Assembly (NCBI GenBank): GCA_903873415.1
Contig: CAIQOK010000134.1
Span: 1 to 63,859, forward strand
DNA from: an uncultured Verrucomicrobiota bacterium
GTDB lineage: Bacteria; Verrucomicrobiota; Verrucomicrobiia; Limisphaerales; CAIQOK01
DNA length: 63,859 nt
Direction: 5' to 3'
Numbering within the stretch: position 1 is the stretch's first letter; each line of letters opens with the position of its first letter. Positions 38,453-63,859 of the stretch are shown piece by piece. Under the pieces are notes generated by a model, which saw nothing but the letters and a program-made list of their open reading frames with translations, had not been told where the DNA came from and searched no databases. A program made the translations under genes and the position numbers.

Positions 38453-39739
38453 TCAAAATTGGACCCGAACAATTGAAAAATCATCATCCAGCGGACCTTC
38501 TCCGTGACGTGCCCGCAACCACTGAAAAAGGCGCTCTAACCCATCGGGTTGGGGCCCGTGTTGCTGCATGAACCGCTCAAATTCATCAAACTCCAGCATC
38601 CTACCCGCGGAATCAGCCACCTCGTAACATCCGTCACACAATACCAGCAACTGCGAACCAGGCGGCACCTGACAGGACTGGGCAGTATAAACCATATCCT
38701 CCATCGCCCCAATGATCAGTCCGGGAGCCAGCAAACGCTGACTGGTGCTGCCACCCGCCGTAGAAGGAGTCAATAATAAGGATGCAGGATGTCCACCGCT
38801 GGCATGACGCAGGGTCCGGGTCGGTGCATGATAAACGCCGTACCAAAGCGTGAAATACATATTGTTCTGGCGCTCCATCAGGAATGCATTGTTGAGCGCC
38901 GACAGAACCGCCCCGGGATCGCGGAAGTCTGTATTGGGCAACGAGCCAGACCGGATCACGTTGATGGCCGTAACCGATAACAGGGAGGCCCCGACGCCAT
39001 GCCCGCAAACATCGAGGAGGTAAACGGCAAAATTTTCGCTGTCAATCCAGTGATAACCAAAGGCGTCTCCGCCCAGCTCGGTAGAGGGTTGATGCTGCCA
39101 ATCTACCGGGAGTGGGGATTTCGAGGGAGCCGGAAAAATGGAGCGCACATAGATCTCGGCCTCCGCCAACTCCTTGTCGAGCCGCCGCTTTGTCTGCTCC
39201 AACAACTCCTTCTCGGCCTGCAATTGAGCTAATCGCACCCGGTCCAATTCGCGGAGGCGCTGCTTCTCGATCGACGAGGTGACGCGAGCCCGGAGCAAGG
39301 TGGGATTGAAAGGTTTTGGCAAATAGTCTTCCGCACCCGCCTCGATGCATTTCACCGCATTGTCCACCTGCTCGGCTCCGGAAATCACAATGACCGGCAG
39401 TCCCCGCAGCTGAGGATCCCCTTTGATGGCCACCAAAACCTCCATCCCGTTCATCTCCGGCATTTCCATGTCCAGCAGCATCAGCCCGAACGGGTGCTTC
39501 TGCGCCAGCTCGACCGCCTGGCGCCCATCTGCAGCTTCGGTAATATTTTCAAAGCCCAGCGCCTTCAGAGACCGGATTAAAGCCAGCCGCATGGTGCGAC
39601 TATCGTCCACCACCAATACGGGCGTTGACTTAAGCGCAGCGGAGGGGTCGTCCACCAGCACTGCCACTGCGGGAATATCGCTCTTCGGGAGCGGGATATT
39701 GGCAGCGGCTGCGACCGGAGATGGAATTTGATTGGACAT
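38453..39739 (-). CDS. Response regulator with C-terminal PP2C (RsbU/SpoIIE-type) phosphatase
   Basis: 428 aa. Receiver domain with phospho-Asp90 (GLMLLDMEMPEMNG) and Lys in DYLPKPFN, a helical coiled linker (RLAQLQAEKELLEQTKRRL) and a SpoIIE-type serine phosphatase domain: GGDAFGYHWID, LLDVCGHGVGASLLS, LWYGVYHAPTRTLRHASGGH and the terminal DDFSIV. The acidic residues that bind manganese in this family appear present. Last gene of the cheA operon, 54 bp after cheY. CheA phosphorylation of the receiver would be expected to switch the phosphatase, whose usual targets are phosphorylated STAS proteins; one is encoded at 47727. Confidence 0.93.
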   Translation of the reverse strand: MSNQIPSPVAAAANIPLPKSDIPAVAVLVDDPSAALKSTPVLVVDDSRTMRLALIRSLKALGFENITEAADGRQAVELAQKHPFGLMLLDMEMPEMNGMEVLVAIKGDPQLRGLPVIVISGAEQVDNAVKCIEAGAEDYLPKPFNPTLLRARVTSSIEKQRLRELDRVRLAQLQAEKELLEQTKRRLDKELAEAEIYVRSIFPAPSKSPLPVDWQHQPSTELGGDAFGYHWIDSENFAVYLLDVCGHGVGASLLSVTAINVIRSGSLPNTDFRDPGAVLSALNNAFLMERQNNMYFTLWYGVYHAPTRTLRHASGGHPASLLLTPSTAGGSTSQRLLAPGLIIGAMEDMVYTAQSCQVPPGSQLLVLCDGCYEVADSAGRMLEFDEFERFMQQHGPQPDGLERLFQWLRARHGEGPLDDDFSIVRVQF

Positions 39740-39793
39740 AATTTTTTAGAAATAACTTCAGTTCAACAAATGGGGAGGGGTCTGGAATTATGC

Positions 39794-40174
39794 CTACGCA
39801 CGAGGCACGAGGGGAATCAATCTTGCCGCTTTTGCCAAAAGCTTATCGTCCTGAAAGGGCTTGATGATATAGTCCCTTACGCCCAGTCGGGCGACGATGG
39901 CGATTTTCTCAGGACTTGAATCTGCCGTCAACATGATGACCGGAGTCCTTTTAAGTTCCGGATTAGCGCGCAGGTTCTGCAGCATCGCAATGCCATCCAT
40001 GACCGGCATATTGTAGTCCAGTATAATCAAGTCCGGACGCTCGCGGGCAGCCACAGCCAACCCCTCCTCGCCGTTTGCGGCCTCGAGCATTTCACATTCA
40101 AAAGGACGAAACACACGGCCGAGCAGGACCCGGATGGTTTTGCTGTCATCAACGCTTAGAATTTTGGGAGGCAT
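39794..40174 (-). CDS. cheY: CheY-type single-domain response regulator
   Basis: 126 aa from the ATG at 40174 (MPPKILSVDDSKTIR). Acidic pair Asp9-Asp10, phospho-acceptor Asp53 (DLIILDYNMPVMDG), Thr/Ser in VIMLTADSS and Lys in YIIKPFQDD. No output domain. It lies 7 bp after cheX, which encodes a CheY-P phosphatase. In a motile cell it would carry the signal from CheA to the flagellar switch. A longer frame to 40249 lacks support. Confidence 0.95.
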   Translation of the reverse strand: MPPKILSVDDSKTIRVLLGRVFRPFECEMLEAANGEEGLAVAARERPDLIILDYNMPVMDGIAMLQNLRANPELKRTPVIMLTADSSPEKIAIVARLGVRDYIIKPFQDDKLLAKAARLIPLVPRA

Positions 40175-40181
40175 AACGACC

Positions 40182-40661
40182 TCAGTAGGTTTTGATTTCC
40201 AGACTGAACCACTGTCCTGCACAACACCAGTGTGTGCAGACATCCTCATGCCCGGGTGTTAAATCGACTTTGTAATCAGGCTCAATCCGAACCACCGGAG
40301 GGCTCAGAAGGCAGGGCTTTCCATTGGAAATCCAATGCGCGGCCACCCGGCCGGCTAACATATTACAAATCTCGCCGACAATATCCTTTAGCTCGGCGGC
40401 GGGCACCTCGTTCGGATCCGCATGACCAAAGACCCGTGCAGCGGCGGCCCGGGCAAGGTCCGGGGCAAACCGAAGGGTAACCGTGCAAAGAGCGCGGCCA
40501 TCGGAAATCGTCACCACCCCATCAAGACAGGGAATTACAGCGGCAGGAATCCTGGAATCGCCCTCGCTGAGGACAACCACGGGCAAGGACAACAATTGCG
40601 GCAGGACGGCGGTGATAGCCGACTCAGCCAGCTGGCGCGATTGAAGTGCGGAAAGTGACAT
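40182..40661 (-). CDS. cheX: CheX-like CheY-P phosphatase
   Basis: 159 aa, single CheC/CheX-like domain. The catalytic E-x-x-N signature is seen in ELKDIVGEICNMLAGRV (Glu and Asn of EICN). Dephosphorylates CheY-P. No CheZ, CheC or CheD is encoded nearby, so this is the only visible way to reset CheY-P. 3 bp after cheB and 7 bp before cheY in the same operon. Confidence 0.82.
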   Translation of the reverse strand: MSLSALQSRQLAESAITAVLPQLLSLPVVVLSEGDSRIPAAVIPCLDGVVTISDGRALCTVTLRFAPDLARAAAARVFGHADPNEVPAAELKDIVGEICNMLAGRVAAHWISNGKPCLLSPPVVRIEPDYKVDLTPGHEDVCTHWCCAGQWFSLEIKTY

Positions 40662-40664
40662 GAA

Positions 40665-41726
40665 TTATGAATGGGAGGGGCGGGACAAAGCACTAAGAAT
40701 GGCTTGGGCAATTCTTGGCAGGGGCTGGATGTCGACAGCCGCATTGAGTTTAATCGCCGCCTGAGGCATGCCGTAAACAACACAGCTGTCCTCATGTTCA
40801 GCCAGGGTGTAGGCACCCGCCGCACGAAGGGCGAGCAACCCTCGGGCACCATCCACTCCCATACCGGTCAGAAGAGCCGCCACCGCGTTACGCCCGGCCA
40901 GTTCCGCACCGGAGCGAAAAAGCAAATCCACCGCCGGCCTGCAATGATGCACAGGCGGCGACTGGGTCAGCCGAACCTTGTATCCGCGCCCTCCCGGCAT
41001 CAGAATCAAATGAAAATCCCCCGGAGCCACCACGCAAAGCCCCGGATGCAACTCCTCACCATCCACAGCCTCGCGCACCGTGAACGGGCACATTTGATCA
41101 AGGTGTTGGGCCATAATACGCGAAAAAGTGCTTGGAATATGCTGCACAATCACGATCGGAGGCAGCCCGTTGGGCAGCTGCGGGAGCAGGGAACGCAACG
41201 CCTCGACGCCTCCCGTCGAAGAACCGATAAGAATGATCCGGCGACTGGAGAATTGGCCGGGCACGACAGGCGCCAGAGCCGGACTGGATGGAACAGCAGC
41301 CACCGTTTTAGGCTGGCGCCGCCTTGATCGTGCCGCCGCTTTGACGAGGCTCGCCAGTTTCCGGGACAACTGTCGCAAATTGCGGCTGCCATCCGGTTTG
41401 CCCAGCACATCCAAGGCTCCTGCGTTTAGCGCCTCCAAAGCCTTCGCGGATCCAGCCGGGGTCAGGGAACTGACCACAATCACCGGGACGGGATGATGCT
41501 CCTGTAAAATTTTGAGAAAGGTCAGCCCATCCATCCGAGGCATCTCCAGATCCAACGTGATGACGTCGGGTTCCAGCTGGAGGATTTTCTCCCGGGCATC
41601 GTAAGGATCGCTTGCCAAAGCAACGACCTCGATCTCCGGATCCTGCGCCAGGGCATCCCGGATAGCCAGACGGGCCAACGCGGAATCGTCGACCACAATC
41701 ACCCGGATTTTTTGTGCGGGTTTCAT
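40665..41726 (-). CDS. cheB: Chemotaxis methylesterase/glutamine deamidase CheB
   Basis: 353 aa. Receiver domain with phospho-Asp59 (DVITLDLEMPRMDGLTF), a linker, then the methylesterase domain with catalytic Ser170 in LIGSSTGGVEAL, His in VQHIPSTFSRIMAQ and Asp in TGMGVDGARGLL. Removes methyl groups from the MCP. It begins 6 bp after the small frame at 41733 and ends 3 bp before cheX. No clear Shine-Dalgarno precedes its ATG, so translation may depend on the upstream frame. Confidence 0.95.
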   Translation of the reverse strand: MKPAQKIRVIVVDDSALARLAIRDALAQDPEIEVVALASDPYDAREKILQLEPDVITLDLEMPRMDGLTFLKILQEHHPVPVIVVSSLTPAGSAKALEALNAGALDVLGKPDGSRNLRQLSRKLASLVKAAARSRRRQPKTVAAVPSSPALAPVVPGQFSSRRIILIGSSTGGVEALRSLLPQLPNGLPPIVIVQHIPSTFSRIMAQHLDQMCPFTVREAVDGEELHPGLCVVAPGDFHLILMPGGRGYKVRLTQSPPVHHCRPAVDLLFRSGAELAGRNAVAALLTGMGVDGARGLLALRAAGAYTLAEHEDSCVVYGMPQAAIKLNAAVDIQPLPRIAQAILSALSRPSHS

Positions 41727-41732
41727 TGACGC

Positions 41733-41954
41733 TTATTTTTCCGCGAGTCGCGCCCCGACCCGGATGGTTTTAGAAACGCGGGATTCGGGAAGCCTCAGAG
41801 CCGCGCGCGATCCGGAAGTGGTTTGCATGGATTGAATGAGACCCAAGAACCCGAGTGGCCGCAAGCCGTTAAAGTGACCCGGCAAACAATGCGACCCCCA
41901 CCCTGCGGCGGCAGGCGGCATGGACGCGGCCGGGCATTCTAAAAAAACATTCAT
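41733..41954 (-). CDS. Small hypothetical protein between cheR and cheB
   Basis: A 73-codon frame that fills the space between cheR and cheB almost exactly (8 bp after the cheR stop, 6 bp before the cheB start). Its ATG follows AAGGATGA, an acceptable if close Shine-Dalgarno. The product (start MNVFLECPAASMPPAAAGWG) matches no family I know, and it does not have the CheD signature HTLLGSC. It may be a real small protein, a translation-coupling leader or chance. Confidence 0.4.
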   Translation of the reverse strand: MNVFLECPAASMPPAAAGWGSHCLPGHFNGLRPLGFLGLIQSMQTTSGSRAALRLPESRVSKTIRVGARLAEK

Positions 41955-41962
41955 CCTTCAAG

Positions 41963-42805
41963 TCAGGGCCGGCGATAAATTCCTTGCTTAATGGAGACCA
42001 GCCCATGCCGGATTCCGAGTAGACTTTCCGAGTGCCCCACAAACAGGTAGCCACCCGGAGCCAGATATCGGGCCAGTCGCTGCACCGCAATCGCCCGGGA
42101 GGGGGGATCAAAATATATCATCACATTCCGGCAGAAAATCACATGCTGTTTCAGGGGCACGGGATATTCATTCTGGAACAGGTTGACGCGCTCGAAACGG
42201 ACCCGCTGGCGCAGCTCCGGCTTAAAGCGGCAATACCCCTCGGCGGGTCCTACTCCCTTTTGAAAATACCGCTTTAGCAATTCCACCGGGACGGGCTGAA
42301 CCGAATCCATGCTGTAGACGGCCTGTTGAGCCTTTGCAATCATTCTGCGGGAAATGTCCGAAGCAATCAGATTCCAGTCCGCAGAGGGATAAGCTCGGAG
42401 ATATTCGCTGAGTACGATGGCGAGAGTATAGGGCTCCTCACCGGATGAGGCAGCCGCAGACCAGATTCTCAGGGGCGTCTTTTCAGAAAGCAACTGAGGC
42501 ATCAACCCCGGAAGAATACTCCTGGTGAGAAAATTGAAATGTTCGGGCTCGCGATAGAACTTTGTATGGTTGGTGGAAATCAGATCCACCAAATGCTCAA
42601 TTTCCTCCACTCCGTTCACTGACTGAAGAAGATCACAATACTCGTCGTAGGATGAAATCCCCAGTGTGATCAGACGTTTGCGGAGGCGATTTGTCAGCAG
42701 CGTATGCTTATCGGAGCCCAACCGGATCCGGCTGTGCTTGTAGACCAGCTCGACCAGCGTCTGATAGGCCTTTTCGGAAAAATCCGCCTCTGAGGAGAAT
42801 CTCAT
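41963..42805 (-). CDS. cheR: Chemotaxis methyltransferase CheR
   Basis: 280 aa. Short N-terminal helical domain (LVELVYKHSRIRLGSDKHTL) and a SAM-binding domain with LRIWSAAASSGEEPYTLAIV and VIFCRNVMIYFDPPSR, ending YLFVGHSESLLGI. Methylates glutamates of the MCP signalling domain using SAM. Lies 32 bp after the MCP gene in the same operon. The MCP ends in NFRNF, which may be its docking pentapeptide. Confidence 0.95.
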   Translation of the reverse strand: MRFSSEADFSEKAYQTLVELVYKHSRIRLGSDKHTLLTNRLRKRLITLGISSYDEYCDLLQSVNGVEEIEHLVDLISTNHTKFYREPEHFNFLTRSILPGLMPQLLSEKTPLRIWSAAASSGEEPYTLAIVLSEYLRAYPSADWNLIASDISRRMIAKAQQAVYSMDSVQPVPVELLKRYFQKGVGPAEGYCRFKPELRQRVRFERVNLFQNEYPVPLKQHVIFCRNVMIYFDPPSRAIAVQRLARYLAPGGYLFVGHSESLLGIRHGLVSIKQGIYRRP

Positions 42806-42837
42806 TCAACTCGACCGCCGATGACCTCCTCAGAGTC

Positions 42838-44475
42838 CTAGAAATTACGGAAGTTTCCATCTTCCTTGCCAGCGGCCATCACTCCGTCCTCGGGCATCGG
42901 GATGGATTTGCGGCCGTTGTTTGAGGAGGAAACTCCGGCCTTTGCACGGGCATGGCCCCGGGCATGATTGGACGATGAGACTACTGCAGATTGGTGATTT
43001 GTGGATTGATGCGTGGAAGGCCCGCCCACCCCCGCGCCACCGACCAGCAAACGCAATTGCCCGACGAGATCCTTTAGAGTCTCTGATTGGGCGTCCAGCT
43101 CTTCGGCGGCGCTGGCACTCTCCTCGGCACTGGCTGCATTACTCTGGGTGACCTTGTCCATCTGAGCGATGGCGTTGTTAATCTGCTCAATACCCTGCGC
43201 CTGTTCCCGGGCGGCAGTGGCAATGTCTGCCACAAGCGTATCGGTCGCGGAAACCTTTTCGGCGATCTGGGTGAGAGCCTCTTCCACCTTGGCCGTGCTC
43301 TGGGAGCCCTTGCGGCTGTTCGCAATCGCAGCCTCGATCTTATCGGCTGTTTCCTTGGCTGCGGCGGCGCTGCGCTGTGCCAGCGAGCGAACTTCGTCGG
43401 CCACGACTGCAAACCCTGCACCCGCCTCGCCCGCACGAGCCGCCTCGACCGCCGCGTTCAGCGCCAGAATATTCGTCTGGAAAGCAATCTCATCGATGTT
43501 CTTCACAATCTTGGCAACCTCGGCACTGGAGGAGTCGATGGCGGCCATCGCCTGGGTCATCTCGACCATTGTTTTGGAACCGGCTTGGGCCACACCACGG
43601 GCTTCCGAGGCCAGAGATTTAGCCTTCTGCGCATTCTCCGCAGTCGCCCGGATCATGCTGGACATCTCCTCCAGCGACGTGCTGGTCTCCTCAACAGAGG
43701 AAGCCTGCTCGCTGGATCCGGAGGAAAGGGTCTGGCTGGCCATGGAGACCTGGCGGGCAGCGGCGGCTGTCTGCAGAGCTCCGCGGTCGAGGTTGGAGGC
43801 AATGTCCTGAAGCGCCTTGTTGGTGGTGCTGGTCACCTTCCAGGCCACAACAAGAGCCACCACCACGGCTATGCCCAGGGCAATACTGATCAAAAAAATG
43901 GCAGAGGCGGCATTGGACTCGCCTTTGTTGGCAGCGGCATTGCCCAGCTCAACATTGTAGTCCAAGTCAGCTTTAACAGCCTTGAGGGTGGCATCATACA
44001 AAGGATCAAGGGTGCCCTGAAGATACTTTGAAAGCTCCGAGGCGGTCTCGGCTGTCGATGTCATGTTCCTGGCCAGCAGTTCCTGCGTCTTGTTGATCGA
44101 TGCAGTCAGGGCTTCGTTCTGTTTGGTGGCTTCGTTCCAGAAGGATTTGTCCTGAGCGTCCGAGAGGAGCGGCTCATACTTTTTAAGAAGATCTGAGGCC
44201 TTTTGGATTGAAGCATTCAACCGCTTCGTGAGCTCCGCGCGGCGTTCCGTGGAAATCGTGTCGTTGAGCTGCTGGATGGCGATCATCTTCTCCTGCACGG
44301 CGGCCATGATTTCAGCCTGCAGCTCCAGGCTGGGCATCGTGTTTTTCCCCAAATCAAAAATGTTTTGCTTCAGGCCTGTTGCCCGAATGAGGGAGAAGCC
44401 ACCCAGAGCCACTGTGATGAACAGCAGAACGACAAAACCGGTGATGATCCGGCGTGATACGGTCCAGTTTTTCAT
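42838..44475 (-). CDS. Methyl-accepting chemotaxis protein
   Basis: 545 aa transmembrane receptor. First span [16 protein letters not shown], a four-helix-bundle-type periplasmic sensor (about 35-190), second span [20 protein letters not shown], a weak HAMP-like region and a signalling domain whose hairpin tip is [20 protein letters not shown], with methylation helices before and after. A flexible Ser/Asn/His-rich tail ends in EDGNFRNF, whose last five residues fit x-[HFYW]-x-x-[HFYW], the CheR/CheB docking pentapeptide. Its ATG overlaps the cheW stop by 4 bp (ATGA). It is the only full MCP in the window. Confidence 0.95.
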
Positions 44476-45020
44476 GATTTCAATTCAGGTTGTTGGGTTT
44501 CGGAGGTGTTTTTTGATTTAGAAATGGCAGGGAGAACAATGGCTCCATCCTCAAGAAAGATTTTTTCGATGTTCAGCAGCGTCTTGACTCCTCCTCGAAT
44601 GGTGGCGACGCCAAAAATAAAATGGGTGTCCGGCGCCCCTCCAAAATCGGGCGTGGGCTCAATATCCGCCGCGCTGAGGTGAACCACTTCCTCCACCGCA
44701 TCCACGATGGCGCCCATGTGGGTGTTTTGGCCCGAGTGGCCTTTGATCTGAACCACAATGATGCAGGCCCTCTCGCCTTGCTGAATGGAGGAGAGCTGGA
44801 ATTTCGCGCGCAAGTCCAGCACCGCAATGACCGTTCCGCGCAGATTGATCACACCCTTGATGTGTCCCGGCATGCGGGGCACCGGTGTGATCGGGCAGAG
44901 GCGGATGATTTCACGCACGTTCAAAACAGGAATGCCGTAGGACTCGGCCCCCAGGGAGAAGGTGAGATAGCGGCTGGTTTTAACATCCGCCTGCTTCAGG
45001 TTGTTATTGCTCGGCTTCAT
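44472..45020 (-). CDS. cheW: Chemotaxis coupling protein CheW
   Basis: 182 aa. Links the MCP to CheA. Motifs [39 protein letters not shown] and [13 protein letters not shown] are typical. The ATG at 45020 shares its first A with the cheA stop (TAATG), and its own stop overlaps the MCP start, so the three genes are translationally coupled. The C-terminal tail ([17 protein letters not shown]) is longer than usual. Confidence 0.95.
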
Positions 45021-47329
45021 TAGTTTAGAGTAGGTGCGGCAGGTTTGGGGACCCGTTGCGGGTTGGGTAACTTAACCAGCGTGTCCACATCGAGAATCAA
45101 TCCAACCCAACCGTCCCCAAGCACGGCCGCTCCGGCAAGCAGATTCTGGCCCTGAAAAGTTTCACCCAGGCTCTTGATAACCACCTCCTGCTTGCCGATC
45201 AGTTCGTCCACCAGCAATCCACGAGCGGCATCCCCGGATTCCACCACCACGATGATGCCTTCCTCCGGCGTCGTCGCGCGGTGACTGGATCCGAGATATT
45301 GGCCCAGCCTCAAGAGCGGAGTCTGTCGGCCCCTTACGCTGACAATCTCCCCCCGCTCATGGACTGTGGTGACCATGCCGGGCCGGGGTCGGAAAGATTC
45401 CCTCACCGAGAGGGTAGGAATGATGTAGCGGTCCTCGCCTATCCCCACCAGCAGGCCGTCAATAATCGCAAGGGTGAGCGGCAGAAGAATAGTAAACGTG
45501 GTCCCCTCCCCCAACACGGAATGGGTTTCGATGCTGCCTCTCAGGTTTTCAATATTGCGCTGCACCACGTCCATTCCCACGCCGCGACCGGAAACATCGG
45601 TGATTTTTTCAGCCGTGGAAAAACCCGGGAGAAAAATCAGAGAATAGATTTCTGAATCGGTCAGGTCCGCATTCGGTTTGATCAGCCCGCGTTCCAAGGC
45701 CTTGGCCAATATGCGATCACGGTTCAGCCCGCGGCCATCATCCTCAATCCGGATCACAATGCCGCCACGCTGGTGGGACGCACTCAGCCGAACAGTCCCT
45801 TGGGGCGCCTTGCCTTGCGCAACCCGGTCAGCAGGGAGTTCGATTCCATGATCCACCGAGTTGCGAATCATGTGAACCAGCGCATCGCCAAGCTTTTCAA
45901 CAATGTTGCGATCCAGTTCGGTGTCTTCCCCTGCCAGTTCTAGTTGAACCTGCTTTTGCTGGTGCGCTGCAAGATCACGAACCAGCCGGGACATCTTGTT
46001 GAAGGTGCCGCGGATGGGCACCATCCGGAGCGACATGGCATTGCGCTGCAACTCGGTCGTGATACGACTCAGCTGCCGCAGCGCACGCGCCAAGGCCAGA
46101 CTATTGATCTTCGAGACGTCCGGATTCTGCACCACCATCGACTGGGCAATCACCAACTCCCCCACCAGATCCACCAGGTTGTCCAGCTTCGACGTGTCCA
46201 GCTTTACAAAACTCGACGCCGCTCCGGAACCGGACGTCTCCTTCGCGGTCGCGGGTAGGGGTGCAGCCTCGTTTTTTTCGGATCCTTGCTTTATCGGCGC
46301 AGGCTGGACAACCGCTGCCGGCGGAGGATCCATGGAAGGCACTGCAACGACGGGCGGCTTGGGGGATGGAACGGACGGGGAGACCGGGGTGGCCGGGGGA
46401 GGAACCGCCTCGACCACTGGAACCACAGGAACCTGAGCCACAAGTTCGGGTGCGCACTTCACCTCCACTTCGCCTTTCAGAGCCGCCTTCAGACGTCGGA
46501 TGAGCTGGGAGGTGGGGACAATGATAGGACCGTGACAACCGGGGTCCTGGAGTTGGGCACCGATTTCCCGGGTGAATTTTTTAAGCGCATCCGCACCCGC
46601 CAAAACCAAGTCAATGATCCCAGAGGTGATCTGCAACTCGGATCGCCGGACCGCGTCCAGCAACGATTCCAGCTCGTGCGCAAGATCACGCATGGCGTCC
46701 AGATGCAGAAACCCGGCCCCCCCCTTGAACGTGTGAAACGCCCGGAAGATGGAATTGATCGTCGTGCTGTCCTTGGGCTTTTCCTCCAGCACCAGCAATC
46801 CCTGCTCGATGTTCTGCAGCAGCTCAAGCGATTCGGAGTGGAATTCGCGAAGCAGATCCAGGTCCTCTGATAAGTTAAGGAGGATGGCCGGCTCGGAGCC
46901 CTGGGAGTCTTCCCCAATCACGGACTCCACCGAAGCACTTGGAGCTGCAGCCTGGGTCGCCGCCCCCGCAGATTTCAAAGCCATCCCCCAAGCCGCCGGC
47001 GCATCAGGAACGGCCTCACCCTCTTCCAAAGCTGCCAAGAGCCCCGAAACCCACTCGTGCCACTCATTGAACTTCTGGATGGAATCAGCCGTGAACTTAC
47101 CCGTACCGTCCAGAATCCCATTCAGCCATTGACGAGCAACATTAATTGCCGCTGAGAAGGAGGCTGGCGCCCCAGCTTCCGCCAACTCTTCCAGATCCAT
47201 AACAATGCCATTGATGGGGAGCAGACCAGAGTCAAGATCCGGAACAAGAAAAGCCATCTCCTCCCCCATCTGACCAAGCAATTCCGAGGCTTTGGAGAAC
47301 TTGAATGCGTTGGTGGCGTGCGGCGTCAT
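45020..47329 (-). CDS. cheA: Chemotaxis histidine kinase CheA
   Basis: 769 aa. After an extra helical segment of about 150 residues, the P1 Hpt domain carries phospho-His199 (FRAFHTFKGGAGFL). In place of the P2 domain there is a Pro/Val-rich linker (PSVPSPKPPVVAVPSM). P3 (GELVIAQSM), the P4 ATPase (MIRNSVDHGIELP, RIEDDGRGLNRD, GRGVGMDVV) and the C-terminal CheW-like P5 follow. It is the first gene of the nine-frame operon, divergent from the STAS gene with a 397-bp control region between. The N-terminal segment lacks a His in a KG context and looks like no P1 copy I recognise. Confidence 0.95.
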   Translation of the reverse strand: MTPHATNAFKFSKASELLGQMGEEMAFLVPDLDSGLLPINGIVMDLEELAEAGAPASFSAAINVARQWLNGILDGTGKFTADSIQKFNEWHEWVSGLLAALEEGEAVPDAPAAWGMALKSAGAATQAAAPSASVESVIGEDSQGSEPAILLNLSEDLDLLREFHSESLELLQNIEQGLLVLEEKPKDSTTINSIFRAFHTFKGGAGFLHLDAMRDLAHELESLLDAVRRSELQITSGIIDLVLAGADALKKFTREIGAQLQDPGCHGPIIVPTSQLIRRLKAALKGEVEVKCAPELVAQVPVVPVVEAVPPPATPVSPSVPSPKPPVVAVPSMDPPPAAVVQPAPIKQGSEKNEAAPLPATAKETSGSGAASSFVKLDTSKLDNLVDLVGELVIAQSMVVQNPDVSKINSLALARALRQLSRITTELQRNAMSLRMVPIRGTFNKMSRLVRDLAAHQQKQVQLELAGEDTELDRNIVEKLGDALVHMIRNSVDHGIELPADRVAQGKAPQGTVRLSASHQRGGIVIRIEDDGRGLNRDRILAKALERGLIKPNADLTDSEIYSLIFLPGFSTAEKITDVSGRGVGMDVVQRNIENLRGSIETHSVLGEGTTFTILLPLTLAIIDGLLVGIGEDRYIIPTLSVRESFRPRPGMVTTVHERGEIVSVRGRQTPLLRLGQYLGSSHRATTPEEGIIVVVESGDAARGLLVDELIGKQEVVIKSLGETFQGQNLLAGAAVLGDGWVGLILDVDTLVKLPNPQRVPKPAAPTLN

Positions 47330-47726
47330 TTACAACATTCAAAGCTTATCGAGTCGCACCCGACGAAAACAAGTCATTTGTAAGACTGTTTGATTGCAAT
47401 CACGCAACAGAGTGATTGGCAAAAAAGGAAAATTGTCCAAAACAATTCACTATTCTACTACACCAAAATCAGGAGAAACCCGGGCGGCCCTCCGGCTGCC
47501 TCTCTTATCAAAATCCGCCTGAGCGGTGGCGCGCCTGAAATCAGATGGAATCGAACCGCCGGGATCAGCTGCACCCACTTTACGGCTTTGGCTCTTGACT
47601 TGCCCGGAGGCCCCCTTAGTTTTCGTTCATTCAACTGGGATATTAAGACGACAAGACTATTAAAAACGCCCGGAACAAATCCAAAAACCCGCAAACAAGC
47701 ACGCATCCAACCAACCACTCTTCACC
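47330..47726. other. 397-bp divergent control region between cheA and the STAS gene
   Basis: No gene is supported here. It must hold promoters for both the che operon and the STAS-glutaminase pair. A palindrome cluster near cheA is entered separately. I did not find a convincing sigma-28 promoter (TAAAGTTT-N11-GCCGATAA) on either strand; CTCGATAA at about 47345-47352 (minus strand) is a partial -10 match only. The STAS side has no clear ribosome-binding site. Confidence 0.5.
47392..47418. promoter_or_regulatory. Operator-like nested palindromes upstream of cheA
   Basis: GATTGCAATC (47392-47401) is a perfect 10-bp palindrome. Its second half also forms a 22-bp dyad, CAATCAC (47397-47403), eight bases, GTGATTG (47412-47418). 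Three GATTG half-sites in alternating orientation within 27 bp look like a dimer-binding operator. The nearest edge is about 63 bp from the cheA start. Confidence 0.45.
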
Positions 47727-48041
47727 ATGCAAAACATAAGCATCATCGAGCTCAGAGGCCGCATCGACAATTCAACCTCCGCCGAAATCGAGGCGAAAAT
47801 CAACGCAGCCTTGGACACCACGCCCAAGGGACTTATCTTGGACATGGCCGCGGTCGATTTCGTCAGCAGTCTCGGGTTGCGCGTCATGCTTTCCACCGCA
47901 AAGCGTTGCCGCAAACAAAACACCAAGATCGCGCTACAAGCTGTCATCCCCCAGGTGGCCGAGGTTTTCCAGCTCAGCGGCCTGGCTGCGTTTTTCCCGA
48001 TGCACCCCAATCGGGAGGCTGCCACTGCCGCGGTTGCATGA
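47727..48041 (+). CDS. STAS-domain anti-sigma factor antagonist
   Basis: 104 aa, a single STAS domain like SpoIIAA/RsbV. The phosphorylatable serine region is DFVSSLGLRVML (Ser47/Ser48). In the usual partner switch an anti-sigma kinase phosphorylates it and a PP2C phosphatase such as the one at 38453 restores it. It is the first gene of a two-gene unit with glutaminase A, 24 bp apart. No anti-sigma kinase gene is visible, so it might instead act on the glutaminase. Confidence 0.9.
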   Translation: MQNISIIELRGRIDNSTSAEIEAKINAALDTTPKGLILDMAAVDFVSSLGLRVMLSTAKRCRKQNTKIALQAVIPQVAEVFQLSGLAAFFPMHPNREAATAAVA

Positions 48042-48065
48042 AAACCAACGCCCGCAGGCATCCAT

Positions 48066-49025
48066 ATGAGCGACCTAGCGCATCTTAAGAACTACATCTC
48101 CGAGCTCCACGAGCGCTATCGAAACAACCACGACGGGACCCTTGCCACCTATATTCCAGAATTGGGCAAAGCCAACCCCGACCACTTCGGCATCACTATG
48201 GTCACCGCCGACGGACAGGAATTCTCCGTAGGTGATGTCCAGCAGGAATTCACCATTCAGTCCATCTGCAAGCCGCTGGCCTTCCTAATGGCACTTGAGC
48301 GCTATGGCCGCGAGGAGACCCTCAGGCACGTCGGCATCGAACCCAGCGGCGAGGCGTTCAACTCCATCCAACTCGACCGATCCAATCGACCCTTCAATCC
48401 AATGGTTAATGCCGGAGCGATCGCCGTGGCATCGCTGATCAAGGGCGACTCCCCGGAATCGGGTGTGAATGACTTCGTGAAGCGCCTCAGCCTGGCTGCC
48501 GGGCGGGAGTTGCGCGTCGACAGTTCGGTATGCGCTTCCGAATCCGCAACAGGCAACCGCAACCGCTCAATCGCTTATCTCCTCCGGAACTTCGAGGTCG
48601 TCGACGATCAGGTAGACCACAGCCTGCACCAATACTTTTCGCAGTGCTCGGTCCTGGTCAACACCCGAGACCTCGCCATGATCGGGGCCACCCTGGCCAA
48701 CATCGGGGAAAATCCACTCACCCACGAAGAGGTGTTTGACATGCGCTACGTCAAGGACGCCCTGTCTGTGATGCTGACCTGCGGCATGTATGATTATGCA
48801 GGGGAGTGGGCCTATCGTGTGGGCGTGCCGGCCAAAAGCGGGGTCGCCGGGGGAATTCTGGCGGTGGTCAACCGCCAATTGAGCATCGCCGTCTATTCCC
48901 CTCGACTTGATGCGCGCGGAAACAGCGTTCGCGGCATCAAAGTGTGCACCGATCTGGCCGAGGAGTACGGTCTGCACGCCTTCGACTTCATGAACTTCGG
49001 CTCCAATTTCATCAAGGCTCTCTGA
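48066..49025 (+). CDS. glsA: Glutaminase A
   Basis: 319 aa, hydrolyses glutamine to glutamate and ammonia. Beta-lactamase-like fold with SxxK at Ser66-Lys69 (FTIQSICKPLAF), the NPMVNAGAIAVASL block and VPAKSGVAGGILAVVN near the C-terminus. It lacks a C-terminal extension, but some actinobacterial glutaminases carry a STAS-like C-terminal domain; here the STAS protein is a separate gene directly upstream. It is followed 32 bp later by the convergent Na/Pi cotransporter gene. Confidence 0.93.
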   Translation: MSDLAHLKNYISELHERYRNNHDGTLATYIPELGKANPDHFGITMVTADGQEFSVGDVQQEFTIQSICKPLAFLMALERYGREETLRHVGIEPSGEAFNSIQLDRSNRPFNPMVNAGAIAVASLIKGDSPESGVNDFVKRLSLAAGRELRVDSSVCASESATGNRNRSIAYLLRNFEVVDDQVDHSLHQYFSQCSVLVNTRDLAMIGATLANIGENPLTHEEVFDMRYVKDALSVMLTCGMYDYAGEWAYRVGVPAKSGVAGGILAVVNRQLSIAVYSPRLDARGNSVRGIKVCTDLAEEYGLHAFDFMNFGSNFIKAL

Positions 49026-49057: not shown

Positions 49058-50674
49058 TCAGACAGCTTGTTCCACCGCTTCCTTTACGAGCAGCATCCCT
49101 AGACGCCGAAGCAGCCAGATGATCCGTTCAAACAAGGCCGTCAGCGCCAGTAAAGTTTGATAGTGCTGCGGATCCATGTTTTTTTCGCCCGCCAGGGATC
49201 GGCGCATCTGAACCATCATGTCAGCCCGGTCCGAAGTCAGTTCCTGCAGCATGAAAAAACTATCCTCATCCGGCGTCTCCGCACTTTCCACCGCAGTGGT
49301 GAGGATCATGTGAAGCGCCTCCGCGGACCGCTGACTGAACGAAGCCAGACGCTCGACGTCTTTGGATTCCACAGACACGGTGACAAACTCGTCCAAGGCT
49401 CCTGCAAGAGAGCCCAACAAGTCAAATCGGCTCTGGAGATTCAACGCCCGCTCCAGTCCGTCCCGGGACTGCTGGCGTCCCATAACAGCGGTGACAAATC
49501 CCTTCACCTCGCCCGAGACGGAGGCCAGGGCTTTGGAAAGGACAGCCGAGGAGGTCTTGACACTCTGCGAGGTTTCCTCCCTCGCCGCATCCAGAAAATC
49601 AGGTAAATGCCGGACAAGTCTCAGGCACTCCTTTTCCGCCAGATCCAGCGCTGTCTCGGGCTCCTCCAAGGCCTGCTCATAGATGTATTGCGGCCGGTTC
49701 AACTCCTCCTCAGCCGAGGCCGGACAGATGCGCTGCATCAGCCTTAGAACGAGAGAAGACGTGGCTGCAAGAACACCGGTCGCCGCGAGCTGAAAGAAGA
49801 GAAAGACATAGGCCATCTGCTTCCCGAAATCGCCGCTTAAAAAGCGCGCAAATGCCTGAACACCGGGGATATTCAAATAAATCTCAAGGTAAAACCACGG
49901 CACCAGCACCACGGATCCGGCAACCTTGAAAAGGGCCTGATAAAGGGCCAGTTGCCGCGAGCTCCCCCTCAGATTGGAGGACATAAACCACACACTCAGA
50001 CCCGAACCAAAATTGGAGCCATAGATGATCATCAAGGTCTGCTCCTGCCCCAGAAGTCCGGCTCGAGCCATGGCAATGGCCACCACCGCCACCGTCGTCG
50101 AGGATTGCGCCACGAGCGTCACCAGCGCGGCAGCAAGAAATGCCAGCAGATACGAGGTCTTGGTATAACTCAGAAACTGGGCCAGCCAGGTCACTTGTTT
50201 GAGTGGGGCCGCACCCGCCTTCATGAAAATCAAACCCGTCATCAGCATCCCCAGCCCCATGCCAGCCCCGACAATCGTCCGGTGCCGGTCCGACTTGTCC
50301 AAGTTCATGTAGTAGCACACCCCGATCCCCCCCATCAAAAAAAGCGCAATCAGCCTCAGATCCAACACCGCCAAGAGCACAATGAGCGAATTACCAATGT
50401 TGGCCCAGGCAATAATCGGCATCGATTTGGACACACTGAGCAACCGCCCTGAAACCAGGCTGGTCATGATGAAGGTCACTGCGGTGGCACTCTGCACCAA
50501 CGCGCCGGAAATCAAACCAGCCAGAGCCGAAAGAAGGGGATTTCGGGTGAGAAATCCGACGAAGCGACGAAAGCCGCGCCCGGCCATCTGCTTCATATTC
50601 TCCCCGATGAATTTGACTCCAATAAAGAAGAGAGCGAGACCAGCCAGAAGGTTGGCGGCGATTTCAATTCCCAT
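49058..50674 (-). CDS. Na/Pi cotransporter family protein with PhoU-like domain
   Basis: 538 aa. The two inverted Na/Pi repeats each have the QS motif (GALVQSATAVTFIMTS, VAQSSTTVAVVAIAM), and the C-terminal about 200 residues form a PhoU-like helical domain. Known members move phosphate with sodium or pair with PhoU-type regulation. Its ATG overlaps the stop of the upstream sensor-like gene by 11 bp, so the two proteins are made together. Confidence 0.9.
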   Translation of the reverse strand: MGIEIAANLLAGLALFFIGVKFIGENMKQMAGRGFRRFVGFLTRNPLLSALAGLISGALVQSATAVTFIMTSLVSGRLLSVSKSMPIIAWANIGNSLIVLLAVLDLRLIALFLMGGIGVCYYMNLDKSDRHRTIVGAGMGLGMLMTGLIFMKAGAAPLKQVTWLAQFLSYTKTSYLLAFLAAALVTLVAQSSTTVAVVAIAMARAGLLGQEQTLMIIYGSNFGSGLSVWFMSSNLRGSSRQLALYQALFKVAGSVVLVPWFYLEIYLNIPGVQAFARFLSGDFGKQMAYVFLFFQLAATGVLAATSSLVLRLMQRICPASAEEELNRPQYIYEQALEEPETALDLAEKECLRLVRHLPDFLDAAREETSQSVKTSSAVLSKALASVSGEVKGFVTAVMGRQQSRDGLERALNLQSRFDLLGSLAGALDEFVTVSVESKDVERLASFSQRSAEALHMILTTAVESAETPDEDSFFMLQELTSDRADMMVQMRRSLAGEKNMDPQHYQTLLALTALFERIIWLLRRLGMLLVKEAVEQAV

Positions 50675-51380
50675 AGCGGTATTTTTTTGAAGGCGCCTTT
50701 TCCGAAACCCAGGCCAGAAGCAAAACGATCAGAACACCCGCGACACTGCCTCCAAAACACAAGATCCTCGAAATTTCATAGCCATACCGGGTCTTCCTAG
50801 CCGCACTCTCCAAAAGCACATCAACCCCACCCATCATTTCTGCCACAACCCGATCCATCTGGTCAGTCGGCTCCCGATCGATCCCTCGCACTTTCTCATC
50901 GGTCCTTTTGCTGCTGGCCGTATCTTCGGGATGATGCTCCTTAAGGGCACTGCGATACCTAACGCCAAGATCCCTGTGGGCCTGAAGCAACTGCTCAAGC
51001 TCGCTGGCCGCCACAAAATCCAGCCCCCCCGCCAAAACAGTCAGGGAATTAAGATCTTCGGCAACTTGATGCTCCTCCTGCTCAAACAATCCAACGTGCC
51101 GCACCATTTGCTGATGATCGTGCCCTCTGAGTAAAATATTCTTCCATTCCTGAACCTGCTTTTTCAGATGCACCTGAGCCGAACGGGCTTTTTCCATCGC
51201 TTGGGTCATCCGCTTCAGGCGCTTCAAATCGGCCAGATGCTGCTCATTGGCTTGGCTGAGCTGAAACAGAGCGATAGCAGCATTCACCAGAAGAATAAGG
51301 CAAAGAAAACAGGTCAATCGGAGAATATTTCTTCCGCGCTCGACTGGTTTTGCCGAGGAATTGGGGCTATCGGTTTTCAT
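50664..51380 (-). CDS. Stand-alone MCP-type periplasmic sensor domain, two transmembrane spans
   Basis: 238 aa. Span 1 (LTCFLCLILLVNAAIALF), a helical domain with KKQVQEWKNILLRGHDHQQM and later KVRGIDREPTDQMDR, and span 2 (ILCFGGSVAGVLIVLLLAW) with only about 15 cytoplasmic residues. The QEWKNILLRG and GIDREPT blocks are those of the periplasmic sensor of many MCPs. There is no HAMP and no signalling domain, and the frame is intact to a normal stop, so this is not a truncated pseudogene by frameshift. It overlaps the Na/Pi gene by 11 bp and probably senses for, or binds, that transporter. Confidence 0.8.
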   Translation of the reverse strand: MKTDSPNSSAKPVERGRNILRLTCFLCLILLVNAAIALFQLSQANEQHLADLKRLKRMTQAMEKARSAQVHLKKQVQEWKNILLRGHDHQQMVRHVGLFEQEEHQVAEDLNSLTVLAGGLDFVAASELEQLLQAHRDLGVRYRSALKEHHPEDTASSKRTDEKVRGIDREPTDQMDRVVAEMMGGVDVLLESAARKTRYGYEISRILCFGGSVAGVLIVLLLAWVSEKAPSKKYRYGN

Positions 51381-60878: not shown

Positions 60879-62492
60879 TCACTTGCCGGGCTCCTTTCGC
60901 AATTGGTCCACCATTTGGGGCACTAAGAGCTGCCGGGCCTGGAAAAAAAGATCCTGACTGACAGCCGCCGCCGAACTCGATAACGGAGCGTATCCCCCCG
61001 TGATCAATTGAATCCTATAACCAGCCGCAAAACGGCTCGGGGAATCCCCAAACTTCACACCCAACGAGGTCTGCTCCGAAAGCCATCCCCCATGCCCGTC
61101 CATCACCGAATGGTAAACCATGGCGTGCCGGATTGTTTTCTGAAGCGTCAGCCTGATGGCATGGAGTATTTCGCGGCCTGGCGGACGGAACAACTCCTCT
61201 TGCGAAGCAACCTGCCAACCGTTCCCCAGATAGCACGTCTTCACATTGTGAAAACCGTTCAACGGATAGTCCACCGCCACCACCGCTTCGATCCCATTGC
61301 GCTGGAAATGCCAGACGGTGGAATGAACCCCCAGGGTTTGAACCAGTGTCTGCTCGCCCACGTTCGAGCTCATCCTTTGCCAACCCGCCAAACTCTCAGG
61401 CATTGACAGCTTGAGTTCCGGCACTGAAGGGAACATCGGCAAGGCCGCAAGGGCCGGCCCGCCCTTGGCGAAAAGGTGGGCGATGAAAAAACTCAAACCC
61501 GTCACCGCAAAAAAGACCCCGGCAAACCGAAACCCGAACACGGGGCCGCAGCTGCGCGACTCATCCGGCAACCCGGCCCGCATTGATGGTGCCGCGACCT
61601 CTTGCGCAGCGGGTTCCGCTGGAGGTTCCTCGTCCGACCTGGTCAGAAACAGGAGCAAGTGATCCGTGCTCCAGATCAGGAGGCAGTAGCCCATCAACAA
61701 CCCCAAACCGAAGCTTTCATGCGGCCAACCGGTCAGCAGATTCACCTGCCAGTAGTAATCCGCCACAGTGGCCAGCGTGATGCGAAGCACGTTGCCCAGA
61801 ACCACAAAGAGGCTGATAACCGGCAGGCTCAGCAGCAACCAACGCAGAGGACGACGGCGCCATAGCCCCCAAAAAAGACCGGCGACGTTGCACAAAACAA
61901 ACGAGTTGATCCCGCTGCAAGCCTCTTCCACAAGCAGGTTCTTTCCAGGCAACAACAGAGTGTTGCCGTCCCGCACATGAAGCACGTGCATAAAATCCAG
62001 CAGCGCACTGCTGGCATCCACCGCCACCGAACGCAGCCACAGCGTCAGAATCTGATCCCCGCCCAATGGCGGCGGAAGCATGGCCAACAGCAGCAGAAAT
62101 ACCGGCACAAAAGCTTTCAATAACGCTCTGCCCCCCACCCCCCATAAACCGGCCATCAGCCCCAGTAAAAAAGCAAGATAAGCCAGCCATGGGGACCACA
62201 AAAGATTGGCCGCCAAACACACTCCGCCGGCAGCCAGCGTCAACAAGCGGGTCAGCCTCAGGCTTCCGGCCCCGCCGACCAACCCGGTTTGCCTTATCGC
62301 CCGCCACCCCAGCATCACAACCCCAACCAACGCCAACGGGAAAAACTGATAAGCCGGCCGGCTCCAGGACAAACGGAAAAACAAACCCAGCAGCGGTAAA
62401 AAACCCAGACATGCCAGCGCAACACCCACCCACCGGGCCTGAACCCGAGACAGTAAAATGTACCTGTGTAAACTGGTCACTCCGATGTTCAT
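60879..62492 (-). CDS. Exosortase with fused C-terminal EpsI-like domain
   Basis: 537 aa. Eight or more spans. The exosortase catalytic residues are Cys192 (VEEACSGINSF), Arg237 (GNVLRITLA) and His258 (TGWPHESFGLG). Residues after about 360 form an EpsI-like domain outside the membrane (SMPESLAGWQRMSSNVGE, AVDYPLNGFHNVKTCYLGNG). Exosortases cut PEP-CTERM-type sorting signals and attach proteins to the surface. No PEP-CTERM or VPDSG-CTERM target is visible in this window. With the TPR gene downstream it forms one operon. Confidence 0.9.
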   Translation of the reverse strand: MNIGVTSLHRYILLSRVQARWVGVALACLGFLPLLGLFFRLSWSRPAYQFFPLALVGVVMLGWRAIRQTGLVGGAGSLRLTRLLTLAAGGVCLAANLLWSPWLAYLAFLLGLMAGLWGVGGRALLKAFVPVFLLLLAMLPPPLGGDQILTLWLRSVAVDASSALLDFMHVLHVRDGNTLLLPGKNLLVEEACSGINSFVLCNVAGLFWGLWRRRPLRWLLLSLPVISLFVVLGNVLRITLATVADYYWQVNLLTGWPHESFGLGLLMGYCLLIWSTDHLLLFLTRSDEEPPAEPAAQEVAAPSMRAGLPDESRSCGPVFGFRFAGVFFAVTGLSFFIAHLFAKGGPALAALPMFPSVPELKLSMPESLAGWQRMSSNVGEQTLVQTLGVHSTVWHFQRNGIEAVVAVDYPLNGFHNVKTCYLGNGWQVASQEELFRPPGREILHAIRLTLQKTIRHAMVYHSVMDGHGGWLSEQTSLGVKFGDSPSRFAAGYRIQLITGGYAPLSSSAAAVSQDLFFQARQLLVPQMVDQLRKEPGK

Positions 62493-63027: not shown

Positions 63028-63273
63028 ATGAAAGCCGTAACGCTCCTCGGAGCACTTGTGGGATTCCTGATCGGAGCCGGGTTTGGACTGACCGGCAGCA
63101 GTCCTTGGCCGGCCGCCTTGTGGCGGGCTTGCGCCGCCGCCCTAGCCGTCGCCCTGCTCGCGCGTTGGTGGAGCCGCATCTGGATTCAAAGCCTGCGCCA
63201 ATCTTTGAAAGATCAACAGGTCCTTCGCCATTCCCCGCCCGCCATCCTCAACCCGTCTCCTAAGAAACTATGA
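63028..63273 (+). CDS. Small two-span membrane protein upstream of the sigma factor
   Basis: 81 aa. The ATG at 63028 gives two hydrophobic spans (LLGALVGFLIGAGFGLTG and LWRACAAALAVALLARWW) and a basic tail. Function not recognised. Its stop overlaps the start of the FliA-type sigma factor (ATGA), so the two are translationally coupled; a link to flagellar assembly or to control of the sigma factor is an inference from this overlap only. Confidence 0.65.
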   Translation: MKAVTLLGALVGFLIGAGFGLTGSSPWPAALWRACAAALAVALLARWWSRIWIQSLRQSLKDQQVLRHSPPAILNPSPKKL

Positions 63274-63859
63274 GCCCAGCCACCTGCGAACTGATGCTGC
63301 CAGTCTTGGTCGAACCCAAGCCCACCCCTAATGAGCTCTGGGAGCGTTATCACCAGCTCACCGACAGCCATGCGGAAAACGCCTTGGTCGAACAATATCT
63401 CCCGCTGGTCCGCTCCGCCCTGGGCCGCCTTGCCATGACCCTGCCCGATCATGTGGACCATGACGACTTGCACAGCGCCGGGACCATCGGACTGCTGCAG
63501 GCACTGCGCAATTATGATCCGAACTGCGGCAACTCTTTCGAGGCTTACGCCCGCCTGCGCATCCGCGGCGCCATGCTCGATGAGTTGCGAAGAATGGATT
63601 GGGTGCCCCGAACCATCCACGAAAAGGCCCGCAAATTTCAGGCCACCATAAGCCAATTGGAGCAGCAACTCGGCCGCAAGCCCACGGAGACGGAGCTGGC
63701 ACACGCTCTGGGGTTGAGCCCACGCGACTATCGCGAACTGGTCGATGAAATCCGGCCCGCGGCATTTGTCTGTCTGGATTCCGCCTGCAGCTCGGAGAGC
63801 GGCGAAATGGGCAGCCTCTACGAGGTGGTTGCCCTTCCCGACCAGGACAGTCCGGTGGA
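63270..63859 (+). CDS. fliA: FliA/WhiG-type (sigma-28) RNA polymerase sigma factor, 3' end beyond the window
   Basis: The first 196 codons are present; the frame is still open at the window edge. Region 2 is clear: LVEQYLPLVRSALGRLAM, DDLHSAGTIGLLQALRNYDP, SFEAYARLRIRGAMLDELRR, then MDWVPRTIHEKARKFQATI, as in FliA and WhiG, and region 3 begins at QLGRKPTETELAHALGLSP. This class transcribes late flagellar and chemotaxis genes. Starts inside the stop of the 81-aa membrane protein (ATGA). Suggests that flagellar genes lie to the right. Confidence 0.9.
   Translation, partial: MSPATCELMLPVLVEPKPTPNELWERYHQLTDSHAENALVEQYLPLVRSALGRLAMTLPDHVDHDDLHSAGTIGLLQALRNYDPNCGNSFEAYARLRIRGAMLDELRRMDWVPRTIHEKARKFQATISQLEQQLGRKPTETELAHALGLSPRDYRELVDEIRPAAFVCLDSACSSESGEMGSLYEVVALPDQDSPV

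Follow-up and report, generated by a model that had tools for sequence, protein, structure and literature searches.

A chemosensory operon linked to partner-switch genes and a glutaminase in an uncultured Verrucomicrobiota bacterium

The DNA analysed here, which we call the window, is a stretch of 63,859 nucleotides from an uncultured Verrucomicrobiota bacterium (contig CAIQOK010000134.1). It carries a chemosensory (che) operon whose last gene encodes a receiver domain fused to a PP2C phosphatase of SpoIIE type (receiver-PP2C), and, divergently, a gene for a small STAS protein followed by the glutaminase gene glsA. We propose that most of a conserved module connecting chemosensory signaling to a partner switch is present in the window, with GlsA as an output by one route or another, and we put the probability of this reading at about 0.55. 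That the switch module is real we consider highly probable, and that GlsA is functionally under the switch is modestly favored; direct contact between the STAS protein and GlsA is a tentative idea only.

The switch components encoded in the window keep their catalytic motifs and phospho-site. Receiver-PP2C (38453..39739, reverse strand; 428 amino acids), which matches the Pfam domains Response_reg (101.6 bits) and SpoIIE (128.7 bits), has the receiver aspartate motif LLDMEMP and the PP2C metal-binding motifs GGD, DVCGHG (DxxGHG), CDG, and DDDF. Divergent from the operon at a spacing of about 397 bp, a stand-alone STAS protein of the RsbV/SpoIIAA type (47727..48041, forward strand; 104 amino acids; PF01740, 73.9 bits; TIGR00377 ant_ant_sig over cut-off) is followed after 24 bp by stand-alone GlsA (48066..49025, forward strand; PF04960, 380.7 bits; TIGR03814 over cut-off), for which the nearest solved structure is that of Micrococcus Mglu (3agd). 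Residue S48 of the STAS protein, in the segment DFVSS, aligns with the phospho-serine position of SpoIIAA in an alignment that includes PDB 1th8_B and 1tid_B, and this phospho-serine is kept in STAS proteins adjoining stand-alone GlsA. An initial annotation of the window had described a cheA operon ending in a receiver joined to a SpoIIE-type phosphatase, and a divergent STAS gene with a DFVSS segment closely followed by glsA; both descriptions are borne out by coordinates and Pfam domains, the second also by the alignment of S48.

The same annotation had noted that no anti-sigma kinase was visible, which is true of the window but not of the genome, and it had pointed to the rest of the genome as the place to find one. 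The only clear stand-alone RsbW-type kinase (HATPase_c_2) is encoded on another contig (C10:35224-35646; PF13581, 92 bits), and the remaining PF13581 matches sit in long frames of 372-1147 amino acids, as expected of histidine kinases. The genome, which has 3 SpoIIE and 6 STAS matches in total, contains the parts of an RsbU/V/W-type switch: a PP2C phosphatase with intact motifs, a STAS protein with a phosphorylatable serine, and, on that other contig, a stand-alone kinase. The kinase gene belongs to an operon (G000:C10:33761-41680 = L026:7762-15681) with a second receiver-PP2C, a paralog 68% identical to that of the window, two STAS genes, a gene for a 418-amino-acid protein with an N-terminal STAS domain and a C-terminal part of no assigned family, and a TrpXYZ-like ABC transporter (ABC_sub_bind, BPD_transp_2, and ABC_tran domains). 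A transporter of this type and the 418-amino-acid protein recur at L047/L050, at L059 (Acidobacteria), and at L272.

The arrangement also recurs in distant bacteria. A search for close relatives of GlsA, limited to one genome per species, gave 80 loci, among which three metagenome-assembled genomes (MAGs) of Burkholderiales share a collinear cluster (L051, L053, and L054, extended as L164, L162, and L163): RsbW divergent from STAS, GlsA, a protein of 244-291 amino acids, and a Na/Pi cotransporter, then CheA-W-MCP-R-B-X-Y and receiver-PP2C. Identities to the window proteins are 74-75% for GlsA, 62-63% for receiver-PP2C, 68-69% for CheY, and 67% for CheB, and the genes on either side of the cluster, clpX and lon among them (assigned by sequence in L053), are unrelated. 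A gene for a GPP34 (Golgi phosphoprotein 3-like) protein lies between STAS and glsA at L053:9275-9937, where the domain was checked, and at the same position in L054. The window contains every member of the Burkholderiales cluster except RsbW, with the STAS-glsA and cotransporter blocks differing from it in order and strand. Among these members are the Na+/Pi cotransporter (49058..50674, reverse strand; PF02690) and a 238-amino-acid membrane protein with no curated family over cut-off (50664..51380, reverse strand), whose gene overlaps that of the cotransporter by 11 bp and to which the 244-291-amino-acid protein is related by BLAST in two of the three MAGs. The 238-amino-acid protein carries a QVQEWKNILLRG motif.

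Further loci carry the same genes in other combinations. In a member of Verrucomicrobiota subdivision 3 (L050 = G043/G097), with GlsA 82% and STAS 72% identical to those of the window, STAS-glsA is divergent both from RsbW (as it also is in L039) and from a STAS/transporter module of the C10 type, and another contig of that genome has a che cluster with receiver-PP2C (80%) and a Na/Pi cotransporter. In L266, a che operon that includes receiver-PP2C is convergent with glsA-STAS; RsbW directly follows the receiver-PP2C of a che operon in L269; and in L277 the che operon ends in receiver-PP2C, a homolog of the 238-amino-acid protein, and the Na/Pi cotransporter. Orthologs of receiver-PP2C hold the same operon-terminal position in L162-L164 (62-63%) and in L160 (80%); in the latter (L160:11420-16400), receiver-PP2C is followed by two proteins in which an N-terminal STAS domain is fused to TCAD9 or to a kinase-like APH domain, and then by the cotransporter. 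Linkage of cheA, receiver-PP2C, STAS, and glsA in relatives, a question raised by the initial annotation, is thus found in the three Burkholderiales clusters and in L266. Since other Verrucomicrobiota and Burkholderiales share the arrangement, we do not attribute it to chance, and the recurrence of the same gene set in distant bacteria suggests that the sensing system probably controls glutaminase or the nitrogen metabolism surrounding it.

The output of the switch could instead be the Na/Pi cotransporter and the overlapping membrane protein, with GlsA no part of it. Both genes occur in che clusters whether or not GlsA is nearby: homologs of the cotransporter are found in L051-L054 (34-35%), L160 (58%), and L277 (31%), and homologs of the 238-amino-acid protein adjoin it in L051-L053 and L277, so that the two stay paired in several che clusters. 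We nevertheless regard this alternative as improbable, since neither gene occurs in the methylotroph or RsbW-only layouts of GlsA and, in the window, both lie on the strand opposite STAS-glsA.

The association of the phosphatase with the kinase extends across the class. In a survey of 384 class genomes, in which kinship was left uncorrected, relatives of receiver-PP2C were found in 71 and relatives of RsbW in 89, and the two occur together in 62 genomes compared with 16.5 expected; RsbW lies within 5 kb of 43 of the 91 receiver-PP2C matches.

GlsA is also linked to switch genes in a second layout, in which it adjoins STAS, RsbW, and a PP2C protein (a CHASE2-PP2C fusion where checked, in L067 and L073). 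This layout is seen in Novimethylophilus, Methylotenera, another Methylophilaceae MAG, Marinobacterium, and Methylophaga (L067, L071-L073, L076, and L077, the last a short contig that shows PP2C and GlsA only), and by eye its small downstream genes resemble those for FecR-domain and OmpA-like proteins. In a tree of GlsA, the che-linked and CHASE2-linked genes form separate groups inside a clade of stand-alone GlsA. The tree also places the GlsA of L070, a MAG labeled Bordetella parapertussis, firmly with those of Acidobacteriota, and this organism label is probably wrong. Of the 30 loci in the stand-alone clade, 10 have RsbW in the flanks that were fetched, compared with none of the 50 remaining GlsA loci, most of which are Gls-STAS-cNMP fusions (Fisher p 2e-5); for any of RsbW, STAS, or PP2C, the counts are 15 of 30 and 0 of 50, respectively. 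These counts are inflated by kinship and include several contigs ending within a few kb of glsA.

Such linkage might also arise if GlsA were a metabolic or sensory accessory, producing glutamate/ammonium near an amino-acid transporter or receptor, that travels with these genes outside the control of the switch. In L059 and L272, a TrpXYZ-like ABC transporter does neighbor GlsA and a STAS gene, as an RsbW-STAS-transporter module does in L050, and some clusters have lost GlsA. However, the partners of GlsA vary, from che genes to CHASE2-PP2C and FecR genes to an ABC transporter, and the element that recurs is STAS, RsbW, or PP2C; we therefore think it rather unlikely that GlsA is a passenger of this kind.

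The rest of the operon is a complete chemosensory gene set (CheA, CheW, MCP, CheR, and CheB by Pfam), all on the reverse strand: CheA (45020..47329; Hpt, H-kinase_dim, HATPase_c, and CheW domains, with about 150 residues of no family ahead of Hpt), CheW (44472..45020), a chemoreceptor with a four-helix-bundle sensor (42838..44475; 4HB_MCP_1 and MCPsignal), CheR (41963..42805), CheB (40665..41726), a CheX-like CheY phosphatase (40182..40661; CheX, 45.2 bits), and a CheY-like single receiver (39794..40249; Response_reg, 93.7 bits). The initial annotation had called this a chemotaxis operon. FlhA (PF00771) is missing in this genome (G000), which is 97.8% complete, and in G097 and G098, and is present in four other genomes; because of its absence here, the operon probably does not serve flagellar chemotaxis, and chemosensory operon is the better name.

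A sigma factor is the classical target for a switch of this type. RpoS is the target both of Che1-CrsR/CrsA in Shewanella oneidensis (PMC9855816), where the chemosensory cluster carries genes for a STAS antagonist and a regulator of receiver-PP2C type, and of HsbR/HsbA in Pseudomonas aeruginosa, which has the same two kinds of protein (PMC6482189). The che/receiver-PP2C/STAS/RsbW switch might likewise govern an RpoS-like factor or the FliA/WhiG-family sigma factor encoded at the end of the window (63270-63857, forward strand), with glsA as a metabolic neighbor or a member of the regulon. The latter gene is cut by the contig end, and a matching C-terminal part at G000:C175:26955-27173 is its probable continuation; without FlhA in the genome, it is unlikely to serve flagella. 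Relatives carry further candidates in the form of sigma factors of 290-420 amino acids with region 3, and STAS is retained where glsA has decayed. Against such a target, the loci whose neighbors were read have no sigma gene next to the switch genes; of the three Burkholderiales genomes that carry the entire cluster, two show only RpoD-size and FliA region-3 sigma factors and one shows none; and a sigma target would leave the recurrence of GlsA unexplained. The FliA/WhiG gene in particular shows no association with the switch: over cut-off, it is found in 8 of 20 switch-bearing genomes, the split gene of this genome included, and in 13 of 20 that lack the switch (p 0.2), and in none of the seven other genomes whose receiver-PP2C is the closest, and we reject it as a consistent target. 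A sigma factor as the output, for instance an RpoS-like one, is plausible but, on this balance, less likely than control of GlsA. Near this end of the window, a membrane protein (60879-62492, reverse strand) looks exosortase-like by eye.

If GlsA is the output, the module might work as follows. Signaling through MCP, CheW, and CheA, most likely non-flagellar, would phosphorylate the receiver domain of receiver-PP2C at the end of the operon, thereby setting its phosphatase activity; receiver-PP2C would remove phosphate from S48 of the STAS protein, and the RsbW-type kinase encoded on contig C10 would restore it. GlsA would be a regular output gene, its activity or amount most likely tracking the state of the STAS/RsbW pair, through contact with unphosphorylated STAS, sequestration by RsbW, or control of a shared transcript. 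Gene content, the linkage in relatives, the catalytic and phospho-site residues, and the kinase gene are observed; we infer each phosphotransfer, the role of the STAS protein as substrate, and any effect on GlsA. The chain from CheA to phosphatase to STAS was already suggested in the initial annotation and is partly supported by the linkage, the kinase, the co-occurrence of receiver-PP2C with RsbW, and the phospho-serine; its last step, from STAS to a sigma factor or to GlsA, is hypothetical. In the most specific version, the chemosensory array would control GlsA post-translationally through binding of unphosphorylated STAS or of RsbW, and the module would have moved between Verrucomicrobiota and Burkholderiales, with parts re-used under CHASE2-PP2C and ABC-transporter inputs; this version we offer as speculative.

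Several observations weigh against GlsA as the output. The RsbW of this genome is on a separate contig and has two STAS partners of its own. In L274, glsA is cut to its last ~38 codons beside intact STAS, che, and receiver-PP2C genes, and in L272 it is frameshifted beside an intact STAS gene (possibly an assembly error), so the switch is kept without GlsA. GlsA of this type is absent from most class genomes that have both receiver-PP2C and RsbW, and the loci linked to GlsA fall into two clades, so that the counts are not independent. Finally, natural Gls-STAS fusions, which the initial annotation had brought in as an argument, have at their phospho-site a serine in 2 of the 38 examined, a threonine in 2, and neither in 34.

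These fusions have the glutaminase ahead of the STAS domain, the reverse of the separate reading frames of the window, where STAS is upstream, and no RsbW neighbor was found in the fetched flanks of any of them. Given the opposite order and the scarcity of Ser/Thr, they do not qualify as phospho-switches of the type proposed here, and a Rosetta-stone argument from fusion to interaction is weakened by the loss of the phospho-site. The NCBIfam model NF002134 matches the STAS protein and GlsA of the window in separate pieces. Structure prediction did not supply an interface: an AlphaFold model in which STAS continues past its TGA into the in-frame GlsA gave a predicted local distance difference test score (pLDDT) below 50 for STAS, most likely owing to misaligned STAS-only rows, and was uninformative on contact. 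A model of a natural Gls-STAS-cNMP fusion (pLDDT 87) differs from Mglu by a root-mean-square deviation of ~11 Å over both domains, with no conserved docking position.

Chemosensory clusters with partner-switch genes and partner switches that control enzymes are both known already, with Che1-CrsR/CrsA and HsbA-HsbD/SiaC-SiaD, respectively, as the closest cases; direct control of a glutaminase would be the novel case. CrsR and HsbR combine receiver, PP2C, and anti-sigma HATPase in one protein, whereas the window protein has only receiver and SpoIIE domains and RsbW is a separate gene; compared with Che1-CrsR/CrsA, the window cluster also has cheX, no cheD that we found, no linked sigma gene, and a linked glutaminase. 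Stage-1 F7 chemosensory clusters resemble the window in having genes for anti-sigma antagonists (STAS) and a serine phosphatase inside the che cluster (PMC7184735), but differ in gene order and membership (CheD and an Aer2-like receptor), and no glutaminase is reported in them. The known targets of enzyme-controlling switches are diguanylate cyclases (PMC7647112, PMC8457831, PMC5085249). In SiaABCD, HsbA-HsbD, and BgrUWV-BgrR, PP2C, kinase, and a STAS or STAS-like protein are encoded beside an enzyme, an arrangement similar to the one described here, and in those systems the state of the STAS protein controls enzyme activity (PMC7647112, PMC8457831); the enzyme linked here is a glutaminase, a putative target. 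Glutaminase-STAS(-cNMP) fusions (Micrococcus luteus Mglu, 3agd/3if5; NF002134) bring together the same two domain types, but with a degenerate phospho-site and neither RsbW nor PP2C neighbors. In the open-access literature searched, we found no description that joins glutaminase to partner switching or to partner-switch chemosensory clusters, in agreement with the novelty first claimed for this route, and the only papers there that pair glutaminase with a STAS domain or an anti-sigma factor antagonist are off topic by title.

Partner switches are known to act on sigma factors and diguanylate cyclases, and a few of them receive input from chemosensory arrays. If GlsA is indeed the output, this logic would extend to nitrogen metabolism. 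The conserved gene set would also suggest a role for the che cluster in bacteria without flagella, and, thanks to the collinear clusters of Burkholderiales, a few proteins are enough to test the idea.

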